DNA of 64,000 bases from Chrysophaeum taylorii. Taxonomy: Eukaryota; Sar; Pelagophyceae; Pelagomonadales; Pelagomonadaceae. Positions 1-10,659 of the stretch are shown piece after piece. Positions within the stretch are counted from its first letter, which is position 1, and every line of letters begins with the position of its first letter. A model generated the notes under the pieces. It had not been told where the DNA came from. It did not search any database and saw only the letters and a program-made list of their open reading frames with translations. The translations under genes were made by a program, and so were the position numbers. The stretch covers positions 186,001-250,000 of the forward strand of contig JAQMWT010000334.1 of NCBI GenBank assembly GCA_029834535.1. The letters run 5' to 3'.

Positions 1-1
1 G

Positions 2-487
2 GCCTGGCCCGCCATCAATGAGGTATATAACAAAAGTTATTTACCCAACAAGGCTCGAGCCATTATGCTCATCGCCTTTAGTCACTACGAGTCTGTTACG
101 ACTACTGATGTGTCCTATTTGAAACAGCAATTTAACTCTGTTGTTTATAATCCTAACTGGTATGTCCATGTATTTATCGAAGCTGTCCTAGCATTTAGGC
201 AAATCTCTTACCAACTTAACCAGGAAGAGACTGACCTTCAATTCGACTTTGGCACTCTTTGTAGAAAAATCTATGAAGAGATACATCGGCATTATGCCGA
301 TAATACCAGCAACAATCGTTACGATCGTGGTTGGGTAGATTGGTGTTATATGTATGAAACCCGATCTTCATCTCGGCCTGTGCCAGAAGCTGAACGATTG
401 TGTCACCCTACCAACCCTAGCTACATTTTAGAATACGCATTAGACCTATACAATGTAGTATCAAATGGGTCGAACAAATACGCTTAG
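2..487 (+). pseudogene. copia gag-like fragment, 5' end outside window
   Basis: An open frame runs from the window edge to a TAG at 485-487. The product is hydrophilic and predicted helical, without a CCHC zinc knuckle in the visible part. The next frame (from about 460) is open through the stop and continues a compatible protein, so the stop probably marks an indel and not the true gag end. Assignment as gag rests on position upstream of protease, not on a diagnostic motif. Confidence 0.5.
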
Positions 488-2136
488 AACGCCCTGTTTC
501 TTGGCAACCCTATGTCGAAGGTTTATCATCTCAACCAAAGCCAAAGTTACTACTTACAAACACTTTGGCCTCAGCAGACAAAAGTCTGACTCAAACTGCT
601 AACACACTCGCCTTCATCACTTCGTCCCAACCTGGTACATCTTCCACGTTTAATGCTAGACGCTTGCGTAACTCTAATGATGCTCGCCAGCCTTTCTCTC
701 GCAGCGATTTATCGTATTATCGTTCTGGTGATTCTTACGTCACCAAGAAAACTGCCGGACAGTCCCATGACCGTCCAATTTACCCCCGCACTTTTGACAG
801 GTCCTCTCGGTCTAACATGAAATTATTAGATCGAACAAACCACACCTTAAACACCCTGCGAGAACAGTGTAGTGAACTTACGAAGCATGTGACAGATAAT
901 GATACCACGGCTCAGCTACAACAGAATATCAACAAGTTATTTGAGACTCTATTACAATCAGCTGACATTCTGTCAACGACATCTACTGAGGACAACAGTA
1001 GTTTACTTCGTCTAAACGAACAGCTCATGTTTGCAGAAGACATCATTTATGATGTAGACGTTCATCTATCCTCGACCGAAAAGTCGTTAAACTACGTGGA
1101 GCCACAACACCATACTGTTGTTACTGCTCCCACCCCAAAGGCAACTCCTCCTACTACAAACACACAGGGTAATCCTTCCAATACCGTGCCTAACCTCTTT
1201 ACCGCTTCCGCCATCTCGGCTTTACCACCAGCATTATTGTCCTCGCTATCTTCACAGGTCCAATCTGCCCTCAACCTACCATCACAAGCCGAAACCAAAA
1301 GGGATGCCGATCATACTTCGCTATCGTCATTTGATGAAAAGCACGGCATGGCTGATGAGGCTGACGAACCATCACCACCTGTTCAACCGATTATTATTCC
1401 AACGAATCTGTTATTGCTGGAGAACTTCTTCACAGCCAGCCTCTCCACTACTTGCCCACATTCGGAAAACGCCTTCCTCACCAACTACATGAAGGTAAAC
1501 AGTGTCCCTCCACATTGCTCTTTTCTATATTTTGACTCTTGTGCTACCATCTCATTGATGTCCACTTACGATTTTGCAATAACCAATCATATAATTCCAC
1601 TGGACTCCAAATACGCGCCGATTGTTATTCAGACGGCGACAGGACATCAACGTGCTTCACACATGATGTTAACACGCAACATTGTTGTTCCCCTACCAGA
1701 TCATCCACAAGTTGGCTATGTTAAGATCGACTTCGCTCTATGTCTTCAGCCAGTGCATGACCGACATCTCGCTATCCTGATCATGCTCGAGTGGAACCAG
1801 ACGAACCTGACCACTGTGTTCAATGATCGAGCTGAGCCAAAGCTCAGCGCTGTCACGAGCCGCATAGACAAAGATGTACGTATACCCATACACTATGTAG
1901 CAGCTAATTTACCTGCTCTCCCTTGTCTCACTTACAACATCGCTCGCGACAAGCAACTCGAACTTCGCTCCCTCGCATTTCCCCTCAAGCGATACCATGA
2001 AAACAGGGATCTACTGGCATACTACAACTACCTACTCCAAAGAGTTTTACCAGATCGCCCGTGGATTCGCCCTTTGGTTCTCAATCTTCGGAAACAGAAC
2101 AAGTTTGTTCAGCAAAATACGCAGCCATTAACTTGA
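484..2136 (+). CDS. copia gag C-terminal part and aspartic protease-like domain
   Basis: This frame starts inside the preceding gag fragment without an ATG and ends at an in-frame TGA (2134-2136). Its first part (to about 1092) is Gln/Leu-rich and predicted coiled coil. It ends at the first T-E-K-S-L-N-Y repeat (1072-1095). A Ser/Thr/Pro-rich linker follows. At 1531-1548 the peptide FDSCAT replaces the usual DSGA or DTGA active site of retroelement proteases, and the hydrophobic stretch LAILIML near 1770 may be the second conserved strand. The Gly-to-Cys change in the active-site triplet is unusual. Downstream of the TGA the same frame stays open, so protease and the next domain were or are one polyprotein. 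Confidence 0.65.
   Translation, partial: LERPVSWQPYVEGLSSQPKPKLLLTNTLASADKSLTQTANTLAFITSSQPGTSSTFNARRLRNSNDARQPFSRSDLSYYRSGDSYVTKKTAGQSHDRPIYPRTFDRSSRSNMKLLDRTNHTLNTLREQCSELTKHVTDNDTTAQLQQNINKLFETLLQSADILSTTSTEDNSSLLRLNEQLMFAEDIIYDVDVHLSSTEKSLNYVEPQHHTVVTAPTPKATPPTTNTQGNPSNTVPNLFTASAISALPPALLSSLSSQVQSALNLPSQAETKRDADHTSLSSFDEKHGMADEADEPSPPVQPIIIPTNLLLLENFFTASLSTTCPHSENAFLTNYMKVNSVPPHCSFLYFDSCATISLMSTYDFAITNHIIPLDSKYAPIVIQTATGHQRASHMMLTRNIVVPLPDHPQVGYVKIDFALCLQPVHDRHLAILIMLEWNQTNLTTVFNDRAEPKLSAVTSRIDKDVRIPIHYVAANLPALPCLTYNIARDKQLELRSLAFPLKRYHENRDLLAYYNYLLQRVLPDRPWIRPLVLNLRKQNKFVQQNTQPLT
1071..1095 (+). repeat. SLNY repeat copy 1 (STEKSLNY in frame)
   Basis: First of five near-identical 22-24 bp stretches in the element. 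It lies in the gag/protease frame, between the coiled-coil segment and the linker to the protease. Confidence 0.85.
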
Positions 2137-3420
2137 CTACTTTCACGCCCAGTGTTTCTCTCACAAGAGTCCAATCTCCGCAAACCCTCTGTCATGTTAC
2201 TTTGTTCTGGTTTGTCAACTCCGGCGTTCCTGTCTCAAGCCACTAATGACTTAGGCTTAAATATCAATGTAAAAGTTGTTGTTGAGTCTGATGATACGCT
2301 TGTTCGTATGTTACGCCACCGTTTCCCTACTGTATTATTATTTGAATCTCTCCCCGCCTTTATTAACCATCTTCACCTAATCTCACCAGAGGAAAGGCGC
2401 ACATTCTATTGTGATATAATTGAGATCACTCCTCCCTGCACAAACAGGAATTTACTAAAACAGCATAAGACAGAAGACTTACACAGCCTGCTGGACGATT
2501 CTCTTTTCGACAGCATGTTGTCTGTCATCAAGCTACTCCAGCCCTTGGTACTACTGGCTGAGATGACGCCTCCGCATAAGTATTGTCATCAAGACCACAT
2601 CACAGTGGCCAACCTTATCCATACTACACTTGATTACTGTGTCGATGTTGTTGATAGGTTCCCGACCTACCTCTGTGGCGACTACCAATCTAGAGAAAGA
2701 TGGATATGCATCGCACGCAGGTATTCTACTGGACCAATTAAACTATTGTCGTGGCCTATCCTCCATCCACGCCCCTTCCTAAAGATCGTGGATGATCTAC
2801 AAGCTATTCCCAAGCGCCTTTGGCTACCTAAACACGTATCCAAAGACTGGATCCGGGTGTTCCCCGATCCTCCATATATCCCCGTTCCTAAAACGTTTGC
2901 ACCTTACTCTCGCACAGGTTCTGCTCAGCTTACTATGGCTGACCTTGAATCCCTCAATATGTTGCTGCTTCGCCTCCACTCACAACAGGCTCACGAGCAA
3001 CGTACTCACTCTGTTCAATCCGAGTGTACTTATCATCAGTTGAGCTTTAAACGCTCCTCTATGGAGCCGCTACCCAATGCAACGCACCCTATACACGTCA
3101 AGGTTTTTACAATCCTCTATAACTTGTTTGCCAGCTTACACACTAACTCACCCACTCCTGTGTCCTATTACATAACCGTTTTCGAAACTAACCAACCGTC
3201 ACACAGGTTATTACTTACAACCTCATCAACATCACACAACTCCTACTTCTTAACTGGTGGCCACCATTCCGACGGCAACCTCACCATAGAGAACGCCACC
3301 ACCAAATATCATGCTTCCATTGACGCGTTTGGAAGCACGTATACGTTCACTGCTTCCGACATCCCCGCGACCGGGACAGGTCCATATATTTGGAGCCGTT
3401 TATGGGTTACTTGTGGATAG
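2137..3420 (+). CDS. C5-cytosine DNA methyltransferase-like domain inside the copia polyprotein
   Basis: Same frame as the protease, after TGA 2134-2136. Methyltransferase motifs appear in the canonical order. Motif I is SGLSTPAFL, followed by an acidic E-S-D-D (2200-2290). Motif IV is CDIIEITPPC with the catalytic Cys near 2437-2439. Motif VI is a Glu in LAEM (2560). Motif VIII is QSRERWICIARR (2686-2721), and a weak motif IX-like LTMADLES lies near 2930. No clear motif X is visible. In the family, the PC cysteine attacks C6 of cytosine, and the ENV glutamate and QxRxR arginines assist catalysis. Here PCQ reads PCT and ENV reads EMT, so activity is uncertain. The C-terminal 300 residues (to the TAG at 3420) are not recognised. 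Retrotransposon-borne cytosine methyltransferases are known from a few algae and dinoflagellates. Confidence 0.68.
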   Translation, partial: LLSRPVFLSQESNLRKPSVMLLCSGLSTPAFLSQATNDLGLNINVKVVVESDDTLVRMLRHRFPTVLLFESLPAFINHLHLISPEERRTFYCDIIEITPPCTNRNLLKQHKTEDLHSLLDDSLFDSMLSVIKLLQPLVLLAEMTPPHKYCHQDHITVANLIHTTLDYCVDVVDRFPTYLCGDYQSRERWICIARRYSTGPIKLLSWPILHPRPFLKIVDDLQAIPKRLWLPKHVSKDWIRVFPDPPYIPVPKTFAPYSRTGSAQLTMADLESLNMLLLRLHSQQAHEQRTHSVQSECTYHQLSFKRSSMEPLPNATHPIHVKVFTILYNLFASLHTNSPTPVSYYITVFETNQPSHRLLLTTSSTSHNSYFLTGGHHSDGNLTIENATTKYHASIDAFGSTYTFTASDIPATGTGPYIWSRLWVTCG

Positions 3421-4300
3421 TCCAAGCCCTTCCCCAAGTTGGCTCCGCTGCCACCTATGGCACCGCCATACAAAAGCTCTTGTCCAGATGCTCTCTTGTG
3501 ATGCCTGGCTGCCTTACCTACAAGGCCACCGACAACTCTTTCGACTACAAGGATTCTCATTTTGCTCTGGAAGATCACCACTTATCTCATAGTCGCTATA
3601 TAGGGTACCTTCGTGGAAGTGACCGCAAACTCGGCTCTAAAATCCACTCTATGCTTGCTCCATTGCCCACCGTCCGAGGGTACGCCAATATTATTTTACT
3701 TGACCCTCGCAACGGGAAATTACGCTACCCCACTCGACCGGAGTTGATTCGTGCTAACAACCACACCAAACAACAGGAATCTTTCCTCTTGTCTCTACGC
3801 CATGACCTTTGCTGTGACATGCTCAGCAATGCTCTGCCTGCCGGTACGTACAGCACTCTGTACAAGCACCTTTCGCTCCTCGTTGCCGATATTAAATCCC
3901 TTATGTTGGACCCTACCTTCCAACATACTGCTGCCGTGACGAAGAAATCCTATGTATCCAATTTCATGACCGTTGATCAAGCTTCCACCACGTGCAGCAC
4001 AGATACCTTGTCTTTGGCACAAGCTTTTATGATGTCTATTTCCAGCAACTGCTTGACCGAAATGTCGTTAAACTATATATCTTCGTCCTACGAAGATACT
4101 CTCGCTACTCGTGATGATGAGGATGCACCTCCAAGTGACCCTGCTGCGCACCAGGATGACGACGCACCGCCTTCCCCTGCCTTAGACACCGAACTCAAGT
4201 TCGATGTTCGGCGCAAACGGCATATTCCCGCTCATCCCATTCCTCGTAAGTCCCTCGCACACGGATCCACCGAATATCTCAATGCCAAAGAACGTGCCAA
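3390..4300 (+). CDS. copia polyprotein segment between methyltransferase and integrase
   Basis: The coding sense moves to the next frame somewhere between 3390 and 3480, so there is no start codon of its own. The product has no domain I recognise. The end carries an acidic linker and the second SLNY repeat (4053-4076). Coding sense passes to the integrase frame at about 4295-4303, where the motif continuity of the HHCC region breaks from frame 3 to frame 2. This is most simply a one-base indel. The frame stays open to 4526, but the part after about 4300 looks like shadow. Confidence 0.5.
4053..4076 (+). repeat. SLNY repeat copy 2 (LTEMSLNY in frame)
   Basis: Second copy, in a different reading frame of the window but still in phase with its own coding frame. 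It lies between the unknown post-methyltransferase segment and the integrase. Confidence 0.85.
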
Positions 4301-7300
4301 TCGCTTCACCGGGTGCATCACTGCCCCGACAACGTCGCTGCCAAGGCCCCCAACGTACTTGCTCGCCCTGGATTCTCTGCTTCTGACATACCATATCGCG
4401 ACTTATGCACCGACTGCATCGCACACAACAAGCGCCACCCGCACAAGCATTTCAATGCGACCAAGCCTTCTTTTGAGCAAACTCACAAAGCCGGCGAAGT
4501 CTGGGCGTGCGACGGCGGCTATGTGACCATCCCATCCGAATGGGGAGGCTTCACACATATCATCGTCTTCAAGGAACTCATTTCGAAATTTCTCTTGGTG
4601 TACTTTACACGCACCACCAACGCCACGGAGTTCACTCAAGCTCTGGATTTTGTGTATGACTTCTGTCGTACACAACTCAACGTGCACATGCGCACCCTCT
4701 ACTCCGATGCCTTCAAGCCCTACTTTAGCCAGCACATTACCTCCCCGTACCGCGTCGATAAGGGCATTCAACTCATCGCCTTCCCGCCGTACATGCACCA
4801 CTTTAACTTTGAAGTTGAGTCTGCCATCGGTTTCATCGCCTCCGCCTCCTCAACTCGCCTTCGTTCTCTCCTTAATGCTCACTATCGTGGCGCCAAGATC
4901 GTGGAACCAGCCATCATGTTTCCGTGGGCGGTGATACACACCGTTCAAAGCTACAACCTTCTCCCGAACGCCACGCTCGAGCGCATTCATCATGCTATCC
5001 TGAGTCCGCAACAGCTACTCTACAACCAACTCAACACTCCCCAACATGATATGCTCAAGATTTTTGGCGCTGAATGTTACCTTCTATTGGAGCCCCATGA
5101 ACACCACAAGTGGGAACCGTGCCGCCGCAAATATTTATATCTCTGTTGCGCCAACGCGCAAAACCCGCTCGTCTCCCCACGCGTCGACCATCTCGCTGAC
5201 GTCGTCCTCAACCCTGAAAACGGACAAATTCGTGTTTCGTCCAAGCTGCAATTCCTCTACATGCAGCATCCTACTCCTGATCCTGAACTTGCTCCTCCGC
5301 CTCACGCTCCTCCCGCGCCTTTCTCGCTCACACCCCACACCGCTATCCAAGACCATGTCATTCAGAGGGGGACACGGACTCCTCATCCTCAGAGGGGGCA
5401 CTCCCCACCTCCTTCAGCTCCTTCTTCGTCCCCTGCTCCTGCCTCTTCTCCCTCTTCTGACACTCTCGCCGACGATTCTGGCTCTATGTCACCGCCGCCC
5501 TTGCTTCCTTCTTACAAAGACCTTTTTGCACAAGATGACCTCATTCTTGTCCCAGGTTCCAAACAGCCCAACACCCGCAAGGCCACTTCTATGAAAACTA
5601 TCCGAGCCCGGTTACAAGCGTCTACTATTGGTGCTTACAAAGCCGCTGGTGGCAAACTCGCCGATTTCCGCTGGGATCTTCGCCACCACTTTCTTACGTT
5701 CAAGTCTCCCGCCCTCTCCGCCCTTCATCTCAGTGGTGGTATCCTCTGGTCTGCTATCTGCTCAGAGGGGGAACATGCGTTGTTAGCTCGTCTTCTTCTC
5801 CCGTTGCGCACTGACTTACTTGCCCGCTACCCGCACGTCGATGGTTACTTCGCCCACGCCAAGTGCGCATCCAGCATCCCAGCTGCAACCTTTTTAACTG
5901 CTGATGGTTCACCTGCGTGCCCTATTCCTCAGCCCCTTTTATCTGCGTTCACTGAACACGCTGCTGCCTTCGGCACTTCTTCCTTACAATATGCACTTAC
6001 GTACCTGGCGCCGACCAGCTTTATTGATCACAACTCCTCCGAGTTTGGCGCTACTTCTGCATCTCTGGCTGACTTGGAGGAATACCTTCTGGTCTCTACA
6101 GAGTTTATCACCCAGGTCTTACACACCGACCCTACTATCCATATTCAACTGGAATCTGCCCCTACTACTCCTACTGACGCTGTTTCCGCTTATCCCGAAG
6201 TTGCGCACACTGCCTCGACCGCAACGTCGCTAAACTATAATTCACCAGCCATTGTTGGTCCTGACGAATATAAGGTCCAAGAAGCGGACGTTTCCATTGA
6301 CGAATATAAACTTAAGTGCCTCCACGGTTTGTCGCCTGAAAACAGGCACGCCTACCTCAAGGCCATCGCCAAGGAACTCCACGACATTATCCGCTTTGGC
6401 TGCTTCAAACTTTCCTTACCCGACGGTGTCTCTCGTCCTATTGACAGCAAGATGGTGCTGAAGATTAAAACAGACTCTGCAGGCAAATACGTTAAGCACA
6501 AGGCTCGCCTCGTGCTACGTGGCTTCCTAGCATCTCTTGGCGCCGATTTCTTTGGCACCTTCAGCCCCATGGCCACCATGACCGCAATCCGGGTACTACT
6601 AGCTATTGCAGCATACAAGCAATTGCCTGTCTACCATGCAGACGTCCCGAACGCCTTCGTTCAGTCTGACATTGATGCCAACGTCTATGTTCAGTTACCA
6701 GACGGCATCAAGCTTATCGACCCCGATGACGCTAAGTACAAGGGCCGACGTCTACCGAAACTGCTGAAGTCACTTTATGGACTTCGGCAATCACCATCTC
6801 TTTGGAACAAAGAGATAGACGGCTTCTTCCGTAGCCTTGGCTACAAACGCCTGCATTCGGACTCTTGCCTATATGCTCGAGTATCCGCACATGCTAAGTT
6901 CGTCGTATGCAGTCTGTCTGTAGACGACATTGTTATTGTGTCCAATGACGACCCTCTTCGTACTGAATTACAGGATGCCCTCCACAAACGGTATGCTGTA
7001 GAGCAGTTTGAACCTGTCCATACCCTCCTAGGCATGCGTGTGTGTCGCACATCTGACGGTTCCATTTCTCTGGATGTGCAAGCCAAGCTGGATGAACTCT
7101 TCGCTGATCACCCAGTCTTGCAGCAACTGACCCCGCTTAAATATCCTATGTCATCGTCCTTCAAGTATAAAGATGGCACTCCCAGCTCTGAAACAGAGTT
7201 GTACATCAATTCGCACTTTGCCACCCTCCTTGGCAAGCTGGTGTTCATGCAAGTTGCCTGCAGACCTGACTTCTCGCAAGCCTTGGGCAGATGTTCGCGT

Positions 7301-8107
7301 GGTATGCATGCACCCACGTATGTTCACGTCCAAATGCTAGAGCATTTGCTTCGCTACCTCAAGAAGCCGGAAAACCGCTCACTTCGCCTCTGGTTCCATC
7401 CTAAAGGTAATGCCATTGAAGCTCACCTTCGCACTGTCTCCGCTAATCGAATTGATCTATCCACTGTGGTCGACTACCAACCGCAGGATGTATCTACTGG
7501 ACAGTTTGATCCCTTAGTTGCCATGGTTGACGCTGACAACGCCCCTTCCTTAGCACAGGAAGATAGGAAATCTACCACCGGGTTTGTCTTCTATCTTTTC
7601 AACTGCCTTATTGGTTGGAAAAGCAAACTTCAACCGATTGTCTCCTGCTCAACTCACGAAGCTGAGTTGATTGCCCTCAGTATTTGTGCTGATGAAGCTG
7701 TTTGGCTACGCAAGCTGCTGTTGGAACTCTCCTTTGTCGTCAACCCCACCTTCTACGTCAACAATGCTAATGGTGAGAACACCGCTGACCCTGTTGACTT
7801 CGATGACAATGACAACCCAATTGCTGAAGATATGCGCTTCATCAGAAGCCTACCTCTCTTGTCTGACAATGCTGCCGCTGTTCACACCTCTAATAACCCA
7901 GATGGGTCCTCTCGATCCAAGGCACTGTCGACCAGATGGTTTAAAATCCGTGAGTACATCTCGCTACAGAAAATACGAGTCCATCATGTTCCCGGCAAGC
8001 TGAACGTGGCGGATGGTTTTACAAAGCCACTTGCTGCTGAGTTCTCCACTTTTCGTTCTCTACTCGGTATGCATCATGCCTCTGACGACAAGCCTTTACA
8101 GGATTGA
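4301..8107 (+). CDS. copia pol: integrase, reverse transcriptase, RNase H
   Basis: No ATG; this is the downstream part of a polyprotein. The integrase zinc-binding region LHRVHHC...CTDC (4301-4425) is followed by a DDE core with Asp in VWACDGG, Asp in LYSDAF and Glu in FEVESA. A Pro/Ser-rich linker with the third SLNY repeat (6214-6238) precedes the RT. The RT has HADVPNAFVQSDI and the catalytic pair in LSVDDIVIV (6917-6928), where the usual YVDD tyrosine is Ser. RNase H has DADNAP, STHEAELIAL and LLSDNAAA, then the copia hallmark KIREYI...VADGFTKPL near the end. The stop is TGA 8105-8107. All acidic catalytic residues are present although the element is broken elsewhere. Confidence 0.93.
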   Translation, partial: SLHRVHHCPDNVAAKAPNVLARPGFSASDIPYRDLCTDCIAHNKRHPHKHFNATKPSFEQTHKAGEVWACDGGYVTIPSEWGGFTHIIVFKELISKFLLVYFTRTTNATEFTQALDFVYDFCRTQLNVHMRTLYSDAFKPYFSQHITSPYRVDKGIQLIAFPPYMHHFNFEVESAIGFIASASSTRLRSLLNAHYRGAKIVEPAIMFPWAVIHTVQSYNLLPNATLERIHHAILSPQQLLYNQLNTPQHDMLKIFGAECYLLLEPHEHHKWEPCRRKYLYLCCANAQNPLVSPRVDHLADVVLNPENGQIRVSSKLQFLYMQHPTPDPELAPPPHAPPAPFSLTPHTAIQDHVIQRGTRTPHPQRGHSPPPSAPSSSPAPASSPSSDTLADDSGSMSPPPLLPSYKDLFAQDDLILVPGSKQPNTRKATSMKTIRARLQASTIGAYKAAGGKLADFRWDLRHHFLTFKSPALSALHLSGGILWSAICSEGEHALLARLLLPLRTDLLARYPHVDGYFAHAKCASSIPAATFLTADGSPACPIPQPLLSAFTEHAAAFGTSSLQYALTYLAPTSFIDHNSSEFGATSASLADLEEYLLVSTEFITQVLHTDPTIHIQLESAPTTPTDAVSAYPEVAHTASTATSLNYNSPAIVGPDEYKVQEADVSIDEYKLKCLHGLSPENRHAYLKAIAKELHDIIRFGCFKLSLPDGVSRPIDSKMVLKIKTDSAGKYVKHKARLVLRGFLASLGADFFGTFSPMATMTAIRVLLAIAAYKQLPVYHADVPNAFVQSDIDANVYVQLPDGIKLIDPDDAKYKGRRLPKLLKSLYGLRQSPSLWNKEIDGFFRSLGYKRLHSDSCLYARVSAHAKFVVCSLSVDDIVIVSNDDPLRTELQDALHKRYAVEQFEPVHTLLGMRVCRTSDGSISLDVQAKLDELFADHPVLQQLTPLKYPMSSSFKYKDGTPSSETELYINSHFATLLGKLVFMQVACRPDFSQALGRCSRGMHAPTYVHVQMLEHLLRYLKKPENRSLRLWFHPKGNAIEAHLRTVSANRIDLSTVVDYQPQDVSTGQFDPLVAMVDADNAPSLAQEDRKSTTGFVFYLFNCLIGWKSKLQPIVSCSTHEAELIALSICADEAVWLRKLLLELSFVVNPTFYVNNANGENTADPVDFDDNDNPIAEDMRFIRSLPLLSDNAAAVHTSNNPDGSSRSKALSTRWFKIREYISLQKIRVHHVPGKLNVADGFTKPLAAEFSTFRSLLGMHHASDDKPLQD
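6214..6238 (+). repeat. SLNY repeat copy 3 (STATSLNY in frame)
   Basis: Third copy, in the pol frame between the integrase C-terminal linker and the reverse transcriptase. Confidence 0.85.
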
Positions 8108-8122
8108 AGATGCCTAACTCTA

Positions 8123-8146
8123 GTGACCGCAACGTCGTTAAACTAG
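8123..8146 (+). repeat. SLNY repeat copy 4 (VTATSLN then stop)
   Basis: Fourth copy, in the pol frame but 15 nt after the TGA that ends RNase H. The Tyr codon TAC/TAT is TAG here, so reading through the TGA would stop exactly at the motif. Confidence 0.85.
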
Positions 8147-9068
8147 CCCTGGCCTTACCTTCTTTTGCCACAAATTTTTGTACGCGTGCGAGTGTTGCTC
8201 ATGTCTTTTCTTGGCACTCCCGTGGCCGCGGCATCTCCCTAGTCGGTTGAAGGACAGTCCTTTCTCGCTCTCCACGGCCGAACCTTCCCCCAGGTTGTCG
8301 CAAAAGCAACGAACCATGACTGCTACAACTGCTACCACACTGGCTGCTGCGTTTGCACCGACACTAGCCGTGCATATCTCACCTCAGTCGCTGACGACGT
8401 TCCAGGACGGCCTCAGTATTGACTATGCTGCTTACGAGCGAGGAATCTCTCTCCTTGAGAACTTCCGTGTCCCTGTCACCCCATTTCTCTCTTCTTTTAT
8501 GCGAGTGGAACTCACACTGACCTATGAGTCTACTGACTTTTCATTGTTTGTAGACCTGACCACATTCATATCCATGCGCTTACCCATTACTATACTTTGG
8601 GAAGCTGCTCCTGCTATTGCTTCTATTGGCTGCTACAGATGCCCCAAACGCGAACGTTTCATTTTGTCGCTTTCCTTTTTTTACGCAGTGCCTCAATGAT
8701 CGTGGACAACCGACTTTCCTAGTCTCGACCACGTACAGTTCCAAGGCACAAACACCTCGTGAACTCCCCACTGAAGTGCTGAGTCACCTCAACACGGACG
8801 ACCATAAGAAGAATGGTCACATCCCCATTATCACAACACCGATCAGTTTACTTGTGACTCGTGTTCGAACACAGAGTCGCACAGCTCAGGCTATACAAGC
8901 CATCCATTCAGCATTTGATTACTACTGTTGCTCGATCGCGTGTACAACATCTTGACGACTACGCATCATCCTCTGATGATACAGAACCGCTATCACTCCG
9001 GGATGTAATGTTCGGCCACACTTATGCTCAGGCAGAACATTAAGGCTTCCTGCACCCCTTTTTTAACG
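8147..9068 (+). pseudogene. decayed copia 3' module A after RNase H
   Basis: Coding-like pieces in changing frames: an ATG at 8316 opens 127 codons to 8699, then frame 1 to 8955, then frame 2 to 9043. One overlapping frame has a Cys/His cluster (HDCYNCYHTGCCVC near 8318-8360) that could be a broken zinc finger. No domain is recognised. It is bounded by SLNY copies 4 and 5, which suggests it was once part of the same polyprotein. Confidence 0.45.
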
Positions 9069-9092
9069 TTGACCGAAACGTCGTTAAACTAC
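9069..9092 (+). repeat. SLNY repeat copy 5 (LTETSLNY in frame)
   Basis: Fifth copy, downstream of RNase H in the frame 9024-9341. It separates two unrecognised 3' modules. Confidence 0.85.
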
Positions 9093-9740
9093 TCACACTC
9101 CACGCTAGACGCTACTCTGGAGATATCTTCGCCATCGTTACCTACGCCTTCTGCTTCGCTTGCTGATTTCGACGTCTTGTGCCAACAAGTCGACCAACTC
9201 CAGGAAACTCTTCGAATCTATATTACCGAGGCTGCCATTGCTTCAATCACCTCCCTGGAGAACCGGCTCTTCCCTCCTACAGCCAACACCCACGTGTTAC
9301 TTATACACTGTACAAGATCACAGAGCTGTTGTCTCGCTTAACACTCACCGCTCATGACCAACATGCTACCAACCACTCCTCCCCGGACGATCACCTCCTT
9401 CATCTACGTGACAAGTTGCTCTCATGCTTCAGAGCATTCCGTCCGCTCTCATGTGAATCTGAAGACTCTTCTATCTTCGTTCGCCAAGTCCAACCTTTTT
9501 TTTTTGAAAACCAACTGGACACCTTTCAACTAGATTCTCTGTCGCCATCCATACTGAATGCTCTACTTGCACTCACCCTTCTCTTGGCACCACATCATTC
9601 AGCTATTGGTGTTCACCACCTTACAGCAGAAGCTGACGATGATTGATAATCCTAACACACTGTCTGTTGTATCTGTGTTTCTTAATGTTCTGTTCAAAAG
9701 GGTCAAATCGACTCTCAGCTCCACCAAGTCCAAGTCCAAG
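9093..9740 (+). pseudogene. decayed copia 3' module B after RNase H
   Basis: Starts right after SLNY copy 5. Frame 3 runs to 9341, then coding sense passes to frame 2 (to 9646). The product is Leu/Gln-rich and predicted helical, similar in composition to the coiled-coil segment before copy 1. No catalytic motif is seen. It could be an env-like or second capsid-like protein, but nothing in the sequence decides this. Confidence 0.4.
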
Positions 9741-9875
9741 TCCTAAGACCCTTCTATACTCTTGATGCTTCGTATGTGACCTCTGTGACCATCAAGACTG
9801 TATTCCCTCCTTTTTCTTCATCATCATCTTTCTCAAGAGATGCTCTACAGTCGCACCTTGCGCTTAAGACATCTC

Positions 9876-10279
9876 GAGGGGGTGCAGAGAAATCTGCTGC
9901 CTCTTACCCTTATCCGTCCGTTGAGAACGTGATCTCTTCCTTACCCTTCTTCTTCCTTCGTACACAATCAAATAGTCCTCTGATTTGTGCCTACGCTCAT
10001 CATCATGGTCTAGCGCGTCCCGAGGTATGTAGCACTATACACTTTACCTTTCTCGTGTAGTTCTAGATGCCGCCTGTCGTGTTCTGAGGATATAGGGAAC
10101 ATACCTTTTCATTCCCCGAATTAAATACTTCCAGACGTTCATGATGAGACGGGATGGTTTCCCAGGTGACTTACCACTGCTTGCTAATGCTCTGCAGTGG
10201 TAGTCTAGTCTAAATGGGTCGATAGGTAGGTGTGTTGCTATAGGTATGTAGGCACAGGGAGATACGTGCATCTATAGGA
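9876..10279 (+). other. candidate polypurine tract and start of 3' LTR
   Basis: GAGGGGG at 9876-9882 is directly followed by TG (9883), the usual order of polypurine tract and LTR edge in copia elements. The LTR end and a target duplication cannot be set because the 5' LTR is outside the window. The LTR must end before the SINE-like element that begins near 10280. No open frame of interest lies in this stretch. Confidence 0.4.
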
Positions 10280-10628
10280 CCCTTTTCCTGATCGCCAACT
10301 GCGGTTGCGATGGAGGACGGTGCCTCATGAATCCTGAGCCTTGCGAGGGCATCCGCCCTCCCGGCGTAGGTTGGCACCTATTCGCCTCCCGGGCGGGCCG
10401 GTTGGCAGCCGGAACGTTCGCAGTGGGTCGGGGTATGGCCGGGGGGTGAAGACGGAAGGTTATCGACGAGTTGGTTGTCAGTCACATCGCGGTCTCCTCG
10501 TCGCATGGCGACAAGCTTGATGGTCACTCTCCGCCGACCGACCTTTCGGCGCTCCTCGTCTACAGGCCCGTGATTCCGGACTGGCACCTGTCGGTCCGGC
10601 CTGGCTCCCATGCTCGGGAGAGGTCTGA

Positions 10629-10659
<31 letters not shown>
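10280..10659 (+). mobile_element. SINE-like element copy A with (AGTT)n tail
   Basis: The segment 10401-10636 is about 98% identical by eye to the complement of 54526-54761. The element ends in about eight AGTT units (10628-10659). A 7-bp direct repeat TATAGGA flanks 10280-10659 (10273-10279 and 10660-10666), consistent with a target-site duplication. The first 120 bp are absent from copy B, as expected if B is 5' truncated. A short simple-repeat 3' tail plus target duplication is typical of LINE-mobilised SINEs. I see no convincing tRNA-type A and B boxes, so the promoter class is open. Confidence 0.6.

Follow-up and report, generated by a model that had tools for sequence, protein, structure and literature searches.

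Retrotransposons are known to have captured cytosine methyltransferases (DNMTs) in the LINE, DIRS and Gypsy groups. In Klebsormidium nitens, KnitGypsy-Dnmt3 is a Gypsy element with a DNMT in its Pol region, and purifying selection has been reported for it (de Mendoza et al., 2018; PMC5890265). In Symbiodinium, SymbioDIRS-Dnmt3, which carries its DNMT in Pol, and SymbioLINE-Dnmt are both DNMT-encoding retrotransposons present in many copies (PMC5890265). Retrotransposon DNMTs are reported to be capable of de novo CG methylation, methylation of the cDNA was proposed by the authors for the DIRS type, and the Copia elements of Symbiodinium are described there as having no DNMT (PMC5890265). A preliminary description of the locus treated here had pointed to Symbiodinium and Klebsormidium as precedents; these are real, but they are LINE/DIRS and Gypsy elements and not copia (PMC5890265). 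A search of open-access papers yielded no clear copia element with a DNMT. One ambiguous sentence in a 2025 paper mentions DNMT3 for LTR Copia and DIRS families and refers to the 2018 study, where the element is called Gypsy (PMC12344493). As far as the accessible text of these sources goes, a case from the copia superfamily has not clearly been reported before.

The window analyzed here is a stretch of 64,000 nucleotides of the Chrysophaeum taylorii genome (contig C334:186001-250000; 70.8 Mb in 697 contigs); a copia LTR retrotransposon, most of which lies inside the window, takes up the first 10.2 kb. This element has the TG..CA LTR ends and 5-bp target duplication of the Ty1/copia group, as well as an RVT_2-type reverse transcriptase with the integrase upstream of it. 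Its LTRs are 315 and 314 bp long, with termini TGCAGAG..CTCTGCA, and GTGGT flanks it on both sides. The features are as follows, in window coordinates unless stated otherwise:

Contig 184528-184842 (outside the window, 1473 to 1159 bases before its first base): 5′ LTR, from LTR comparison.
1-10196, forward strand: in-window part of the copia element, from the LTR pair and the GTGGT duplication.
421-2133, forward strand: open frame with a predicted gag-like stretch and a putative protease-like motif, D-S-C-A (1534-1545).
2134-2136, forward strand: in-frame TGA followed by CTA, a probable readthrough site, from comparison of copies.
2176-2736, forward strand: C5-cytosine methyltransferase-like catalytic core with motifs I to VIII, from profile, hhalign, structure and motif evidence.
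2737-4483, forward strand: region between DNMT core and integrase with no known domain (neither 2137-3417 nor 3390-4523 matches a Pfam model).
4484-4732, forward strand: integrase core (rve), E 0.0045, under the gathering score.
6416-7078, forward strand: copia reverse transcriptase (RVT_2), Pfam E 1e-41.
7500-8104, forward strand: putative RNase H-like end of Pol, without a Pfam match.
9876-9882, forward strand: G-rich polypurine stretch directly before the 3′ LTR.
9883-10196, forward strand: 3′ LTR, TGCAGAG..CTCTGCA, 97% identical to the 5′ LTR.
10197-10201, forward strand: right-hand GTGGT of the 5-bp target duplication.

For the frame at 421-2133, Pfam gave nothing above its cut-off, and the motif at 1534-1545 is taken to mark a protease by its presumed agreement with D-[ST]-G-A; the RNase H-like assignment is likewise our assumption from a familiar motif. 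Behind the integrase core lies an SH3_retrovirus match in Pfam (E 2.7e-4), also under its gathering score, and Rfam matched nothing in the window at gathering scores. Frames are disrupted in the window copy: those upstream overlap near 421-484, and near 3370 its DNMT frame diverges from the one that other copies have. A short repeat occupies window positions 10291-10650, just behind the element; it occurs twice more in locus L035 (107-459 and 5365-5492), the second time where that copy of the family is interrupted. Just inside the 5′ LTR, at L029:3844-3858, is the sequence GGTTATGGGCCCAGG, which we take, from an unaligned comparison, to resemble the complement of the anticodon stem-loop of the initiator tRNA, as with the half-tRNA priming that Drosophila copia uses.

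The DNMT frame spans 2137-3417, residue 1 being encoded from base 2137. In order along it lie a motif I-like CSGLSTPAF (2203-2229), an acidic Glu50 after strand 2, motif IV PPC with Cys101 (2437-2439), a motif VI-like LLAEMTPP with Glu142 (2560-2562), and motif VIII QSRERW with Arg188 (2686-2703). The Pro-Cys of motif IV, the Glu of motif VI and the Arg of motif VIII recur in this order in all nine distinct copies read of the window element’s family, family A. Motif I is altered, in that it has lost its usual glycines, and motif VI of family A reads EMT rather than ENV; the series I, IV, VI, VIII noted in the preliminary description is in register with C5-methyltransferases by hhalign, with two of its members modified. 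The location that it gave, between the protease motif and the copia integrase, agrees with the reading frame and the Pfam layout. Its limits of 2188-2990 hold only in part, as the core runs from about 2176 to 2736, so that the former start falls inside the core and the former end overshoots it. No target-recognition domain or motif IX or X was identified by alignment or by hhalign against C5-methyltransferases, where the aligned region covers residues 14-213 only and the full-length structural model is unreliable past residue 200. If such parts exist, the region at 2737-4483 would need to hold them. The copia domain shares its predicted core fold and its motif order I, IV, VI, VIII with DNMT1/MET1, DNMT3, DNMT2, M.HhaI and M.HaeIII, but is about 10-20% identical to these enzymes, has motifs I and VI altered, and shows no recognized target-recognition domain, motif IX or motif X.

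Homology to C5-methyltransferases emerges from relatives of the window protein, which alone matches nothing in Pfam or NCBIfam and finds nothing significant among PDB sequences. A profile from family A alone (A4) also found nothing significant among PDB sequences, its best C5-methyltransferase row having E 1.2, whereas a profile of family A with the second family described below (A3) matched PDB 8yf3 (3.3e-6) and M.HhaI (3.4e-4). The window protein retrieved two proteins from a protein database, P0001 (41% identical; from a transcriptome) and P0002 (38%), and profile A1 retrieved three, P0003 being the additional one. Of 24,736 Pfam models, PF00145 alone matched P0001 (E 4e-4) and P0002 (E 6e-5) with E <= 1; P0002 lies above and P0001 below the PF00145 cut-off, and 6 of the 15 members of alignment A2 match this model. 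The profile search suggested in the preliminary description has a divided outcome, negative for the window protein and positive for its homologues and for family B. With hhalign, an alignment of family A and P0001-P0003 matched seven C5-methyltransferases with probability 95.7 and E 1e-8, motifs in register, versus at most probability 0.9 and E 0.063 in 200 column shuffles and probability 0.1 for the reversed alignment. The DNMT region of copy L031 retrieved no long polyproteins from the protein database, and seven pattern matches in viral contigs gave no confirmed case.

Structure prediction, which had also been proposed, gave a poor first model of the full-length protein (mean pLDDT 47), whose matches mixed C5-methyltransferases with NAD(P) enzymes and had DNMT2 as the top Foldseek row. 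The model of the core (pLDDT 72, pTM 0.75) contains a SAM-binding Rossmann core of C5-methyltransferase type, and in each of two structure comparisons all 50 of the 50 matches listed were enzymes of the C5-methyltransferase family. Among these listed matches DNMT2 appears again, DNMT1 and Met1 ranking equal to or above it; Foldseek ranking among C5-methyltransferases is not decisive. Because the homologues match PF00145 only, hhalign far exceeds its shuffles, and the listed core-model matches are all C5-methyltransferases, the identity of the domain goes beyond chance: window positions 2137-3417 almost certainly encode a divergent C5-methyltransferase homologue, as the preliminary description had supposed for a domain within a copia element.

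Relatives of the 2137-3417 frame are encoded by 102 genomic stretches at E <= 0.001, a rough copy number only (scoring covered 98 of 1443 first-look candidates, and an element may account for two rows). The loci read for both families were the best-scoring ones and not a random sample, and 11 family A loci represent nine distinct copies, since L030 duplicates L003 and L035 duplicates L008. The search for intact copies was answered in part: copies are many, and in L031 a single open frame of 1691 aa runs from the DNMT to the reverse transcriptase, although farther upstream this copy carries an additional stop.

A second, diverged copia family (family B) was found in the same genome through its PF00145-matching DNMT. 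In locus L033, one open frame of 1952 aa holds a DGGAS protease-like motif, the DNMT, the integrase and RVT_2. Its DNMT exceeds the PF00145 cut-off (E 1.1e-7), and the family B domain also matches TIGR00675 dcm in NCBIfam (1.3e-8) and phage DNA methyltransferases (best E 1e-6). Of the 18 family B loci, three (L032-L034) were read with their surroundings, with full-frame Pfam on L033 only, and the other 15 just around the DNMT. All 18 have PC and the Glu of motif VI, and 15 show the motif VIII pattern. The Gln of motif VIII is absent from family B. Between the families, DNMT identity is about 19% in the aligned region and reverse transcriptase identity 35% over 312 residues, and the P0002 DNMT aligns to that of family B with E 1e-12. 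Family A, P0001-P0003 and family B cluster with SH-like support of 0.95 in a tree of 17 sequences that included phage and host enzymes; a single capture before the A/B split is the simplest reading of these comparisons, the tree being one without the eukaryotic Dnmt classes. Beside the family B element of L032, on the opposite strand, lies a family A 3′ end (L032:8428-9901, equivalent to window 8727-10196). The genome also has two full-length host-type DNMT genes, L009 (C634:8824-9801; PF00145 E 4.1e-19) and L010 (C621:16962-17498; E 7.9e-18), both spanning nearly the whole profile. Many further long-frame stretches match just PF00145 positions 2 to about 53 with weak scores (e.g., C235:21172-21345, C686:127391-127564, and C491:52005-52181) and are possibly another repeated family.

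New here is the in-frame UGA-CUA that directly precedes the DNMT. The TGA at 2134-2136 is in frame with both protease and DNMT, and the TGACTA junction is identical in eight of the nine distinct family A copies, the exception being L006 (10 of 11 loci before duplicates were merged). The DNMT had been described as part of the polyprotein; it does share the frame, but in family A this stop interrupts it. In family B, the L033 DNMT is continuous with the protease-like motif, with no stop between. An in-frame UGA-CUA kept among copies is the sequence feature of a UGA readthrough site, and on this basis readthrough at the junction is likely, and Pol made in this way would probably have the DNMT as its leading domain in family A. 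UGA-CUA alone is reported to give 1.5% readthrough in human cells (PMC4132726). The shared stop may simply descend from one source element, although Pol expression in that element would still have required passage through the stop. Downstream of it the RNA structure shows nothing unusual (z -0.73). Tca2 of Candida albicans is a copia-type retrotransposon. It, too, carries an in-frame UGA, which separates gag from pol and needs bypass, but it differs in having no DNMT, and here the UGA is followed by CUA; the Tca2 junction alone gave no readthrough in S. cerevisiae (PMC2194720).

Among the systems described earlier, KnitGypsy-Dnmt3 is also an LTR retrotransposon with a cytosine methyltransferase in its Pol polyprotein and key residues kept; it is, however, a Gypsy element whose DNMT is placed by a tree in Dnmt3, whereas the copia DNMT is given no class here, and the published account, in its accessible text, does not mention a stop before the DNMT such as the UGA of family A (PMC5890265). 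The Symbiodinium elements are similar in their many copies and, for SymbioDIRS-Dnmt3, in a DNMT within Pol, but they are DIRS and LINE elements and not LTR copia (PMC5890265).

In family A, dN/dS was 0.14 for the core and 0.35 for the remainder (36 pairs of nine copies), the latter value being inflated by copies with frame changes near the end. The pair of the window copy and L031 gave 0.41 for the core (five synonymous and seven non-synonymous changes) versus 0.05 for the integrase and 0.08 for the reverse transcriptase, so single young pairs fail to show core constraint. In family B, three pairs gave core values of 0.12, 0.08, and 0.11, with core dS of 0.6-0.8. CpG transitions between the window copy and L031 were not in excess (33 of 422 CG sites versus 38 of 495 GC sites), and heavy CpG methylation of old copies is therefore unsupported. 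For the idea in the preliminary description that the element may methylate its own copies or escape host control, this comparison served as an indirect test, with a negative result. The CpG observed/expected ratio was 0.90 for the element and 1.34 for the rest of the window, two regions that differ in composition and coding.

The explanation that we consider best, at somewhat better than even probability as a whole, is a captured and retained C5-methyltransferase, made by readthrough and most likely methylating cDNA. Domain identity, domain order, the many copies, the kept catalytic motifs, the conserved stop and family B selection are its computed elements. A copia lineage would have captured a C5-cytosine methyltransferase, most simply before the A/B split, and then kept it. 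In family A, the Gag-protease product would terminate at UGA-CUA, and occasional readthrough would give a longer product with the DNMT first, followed by integrase and reverse transcriptase. The DNMT would thereby enter the virus-like particle, if packaged, at the same low dose as the reverse transcriptase, and in the particle the cytosines of new cDNA would most likely be methylated before integration, the least certain step. A DNMT placed first after the stop fits the cDNA methylation idea proposed for the DIRS type. The domain is rather likely to be an active methyltransferase; that cDNA is its main substrate has a little less than an even chance, and this substrate and the benefit of marking to the element are the least certain parts. 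The altered motif I, the EMT of family A and the missing motif VIII Gln of family B count against full activity; the core dN/dS of 0.41 in the window-L031 pair, the ordinary number of CpG transitions, the ordinary RNA structure after the stop and the failure of the window protein to match any profile also weigh against this explanation. More tentatively still, an old copia lineage may have made an independent capture, with UGA-CUA readthrough tying the dose to that of reverse transcriptase, such that a methyltransferase in each particle would mark the cDNA, or else the element’s RNA or its tRNA primer, prior to integration.

A descendant of a C5-methyltransferase that no longer methylates, and that Pol retains for nucleic-acid binding or for its structure, would fit the altered motifs I and VI, the lack of a recognized target-recognition domain or motifs IX-X, the lack of a CpG decay sign and the low core constraint in one young pair. 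This alternative is rather unlikely, however, as none of the nine family A copies has a change in the catalytic Cys, Glu or Arg, and PC and Glu persist in 18/18 family B loci despite the roughly 19% identity between the families. Less probable again is an RNA or tRNA cytosine methyltransferase whose target is the RNA of the element or the initiator tRNA that primes it, comparable to DNMT2 with its tRNA anticodon loop: the DNMT2 matches of both models and the presumed tRNA-like complement after the 5′ LTR (L029:3844-3858) speak for it, and the rank of DNMT1 and Met1, as high as DNMT2 or higher for the core model, speaks against it. Chance motif matches in some other Rossmann-type protein without methyltransferase kinship, for which one could cite the window protein’s lack of a Pfam match and the NAD(P) enzymes matched by the low-confidence full-length model, are contradicted by the Pfam, hhalign, shuffle and structure results and are scarcely credible.

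The independent capture with readthrough dosing sketched above, if true, would give copia its first clear example, and no translational control of the dose of such an enzyme was met in the literature searched. Two diverged copia DNMT families occur in one 71-Mb genome, one of them divergent enough for the standard profile to miss, and a copia case with a probable readthrough stop suggests that DNMT captures are commoner than profile searches show. The element offers a compact system for testing what a retrotransposon gains from a methyltransferase of its own.
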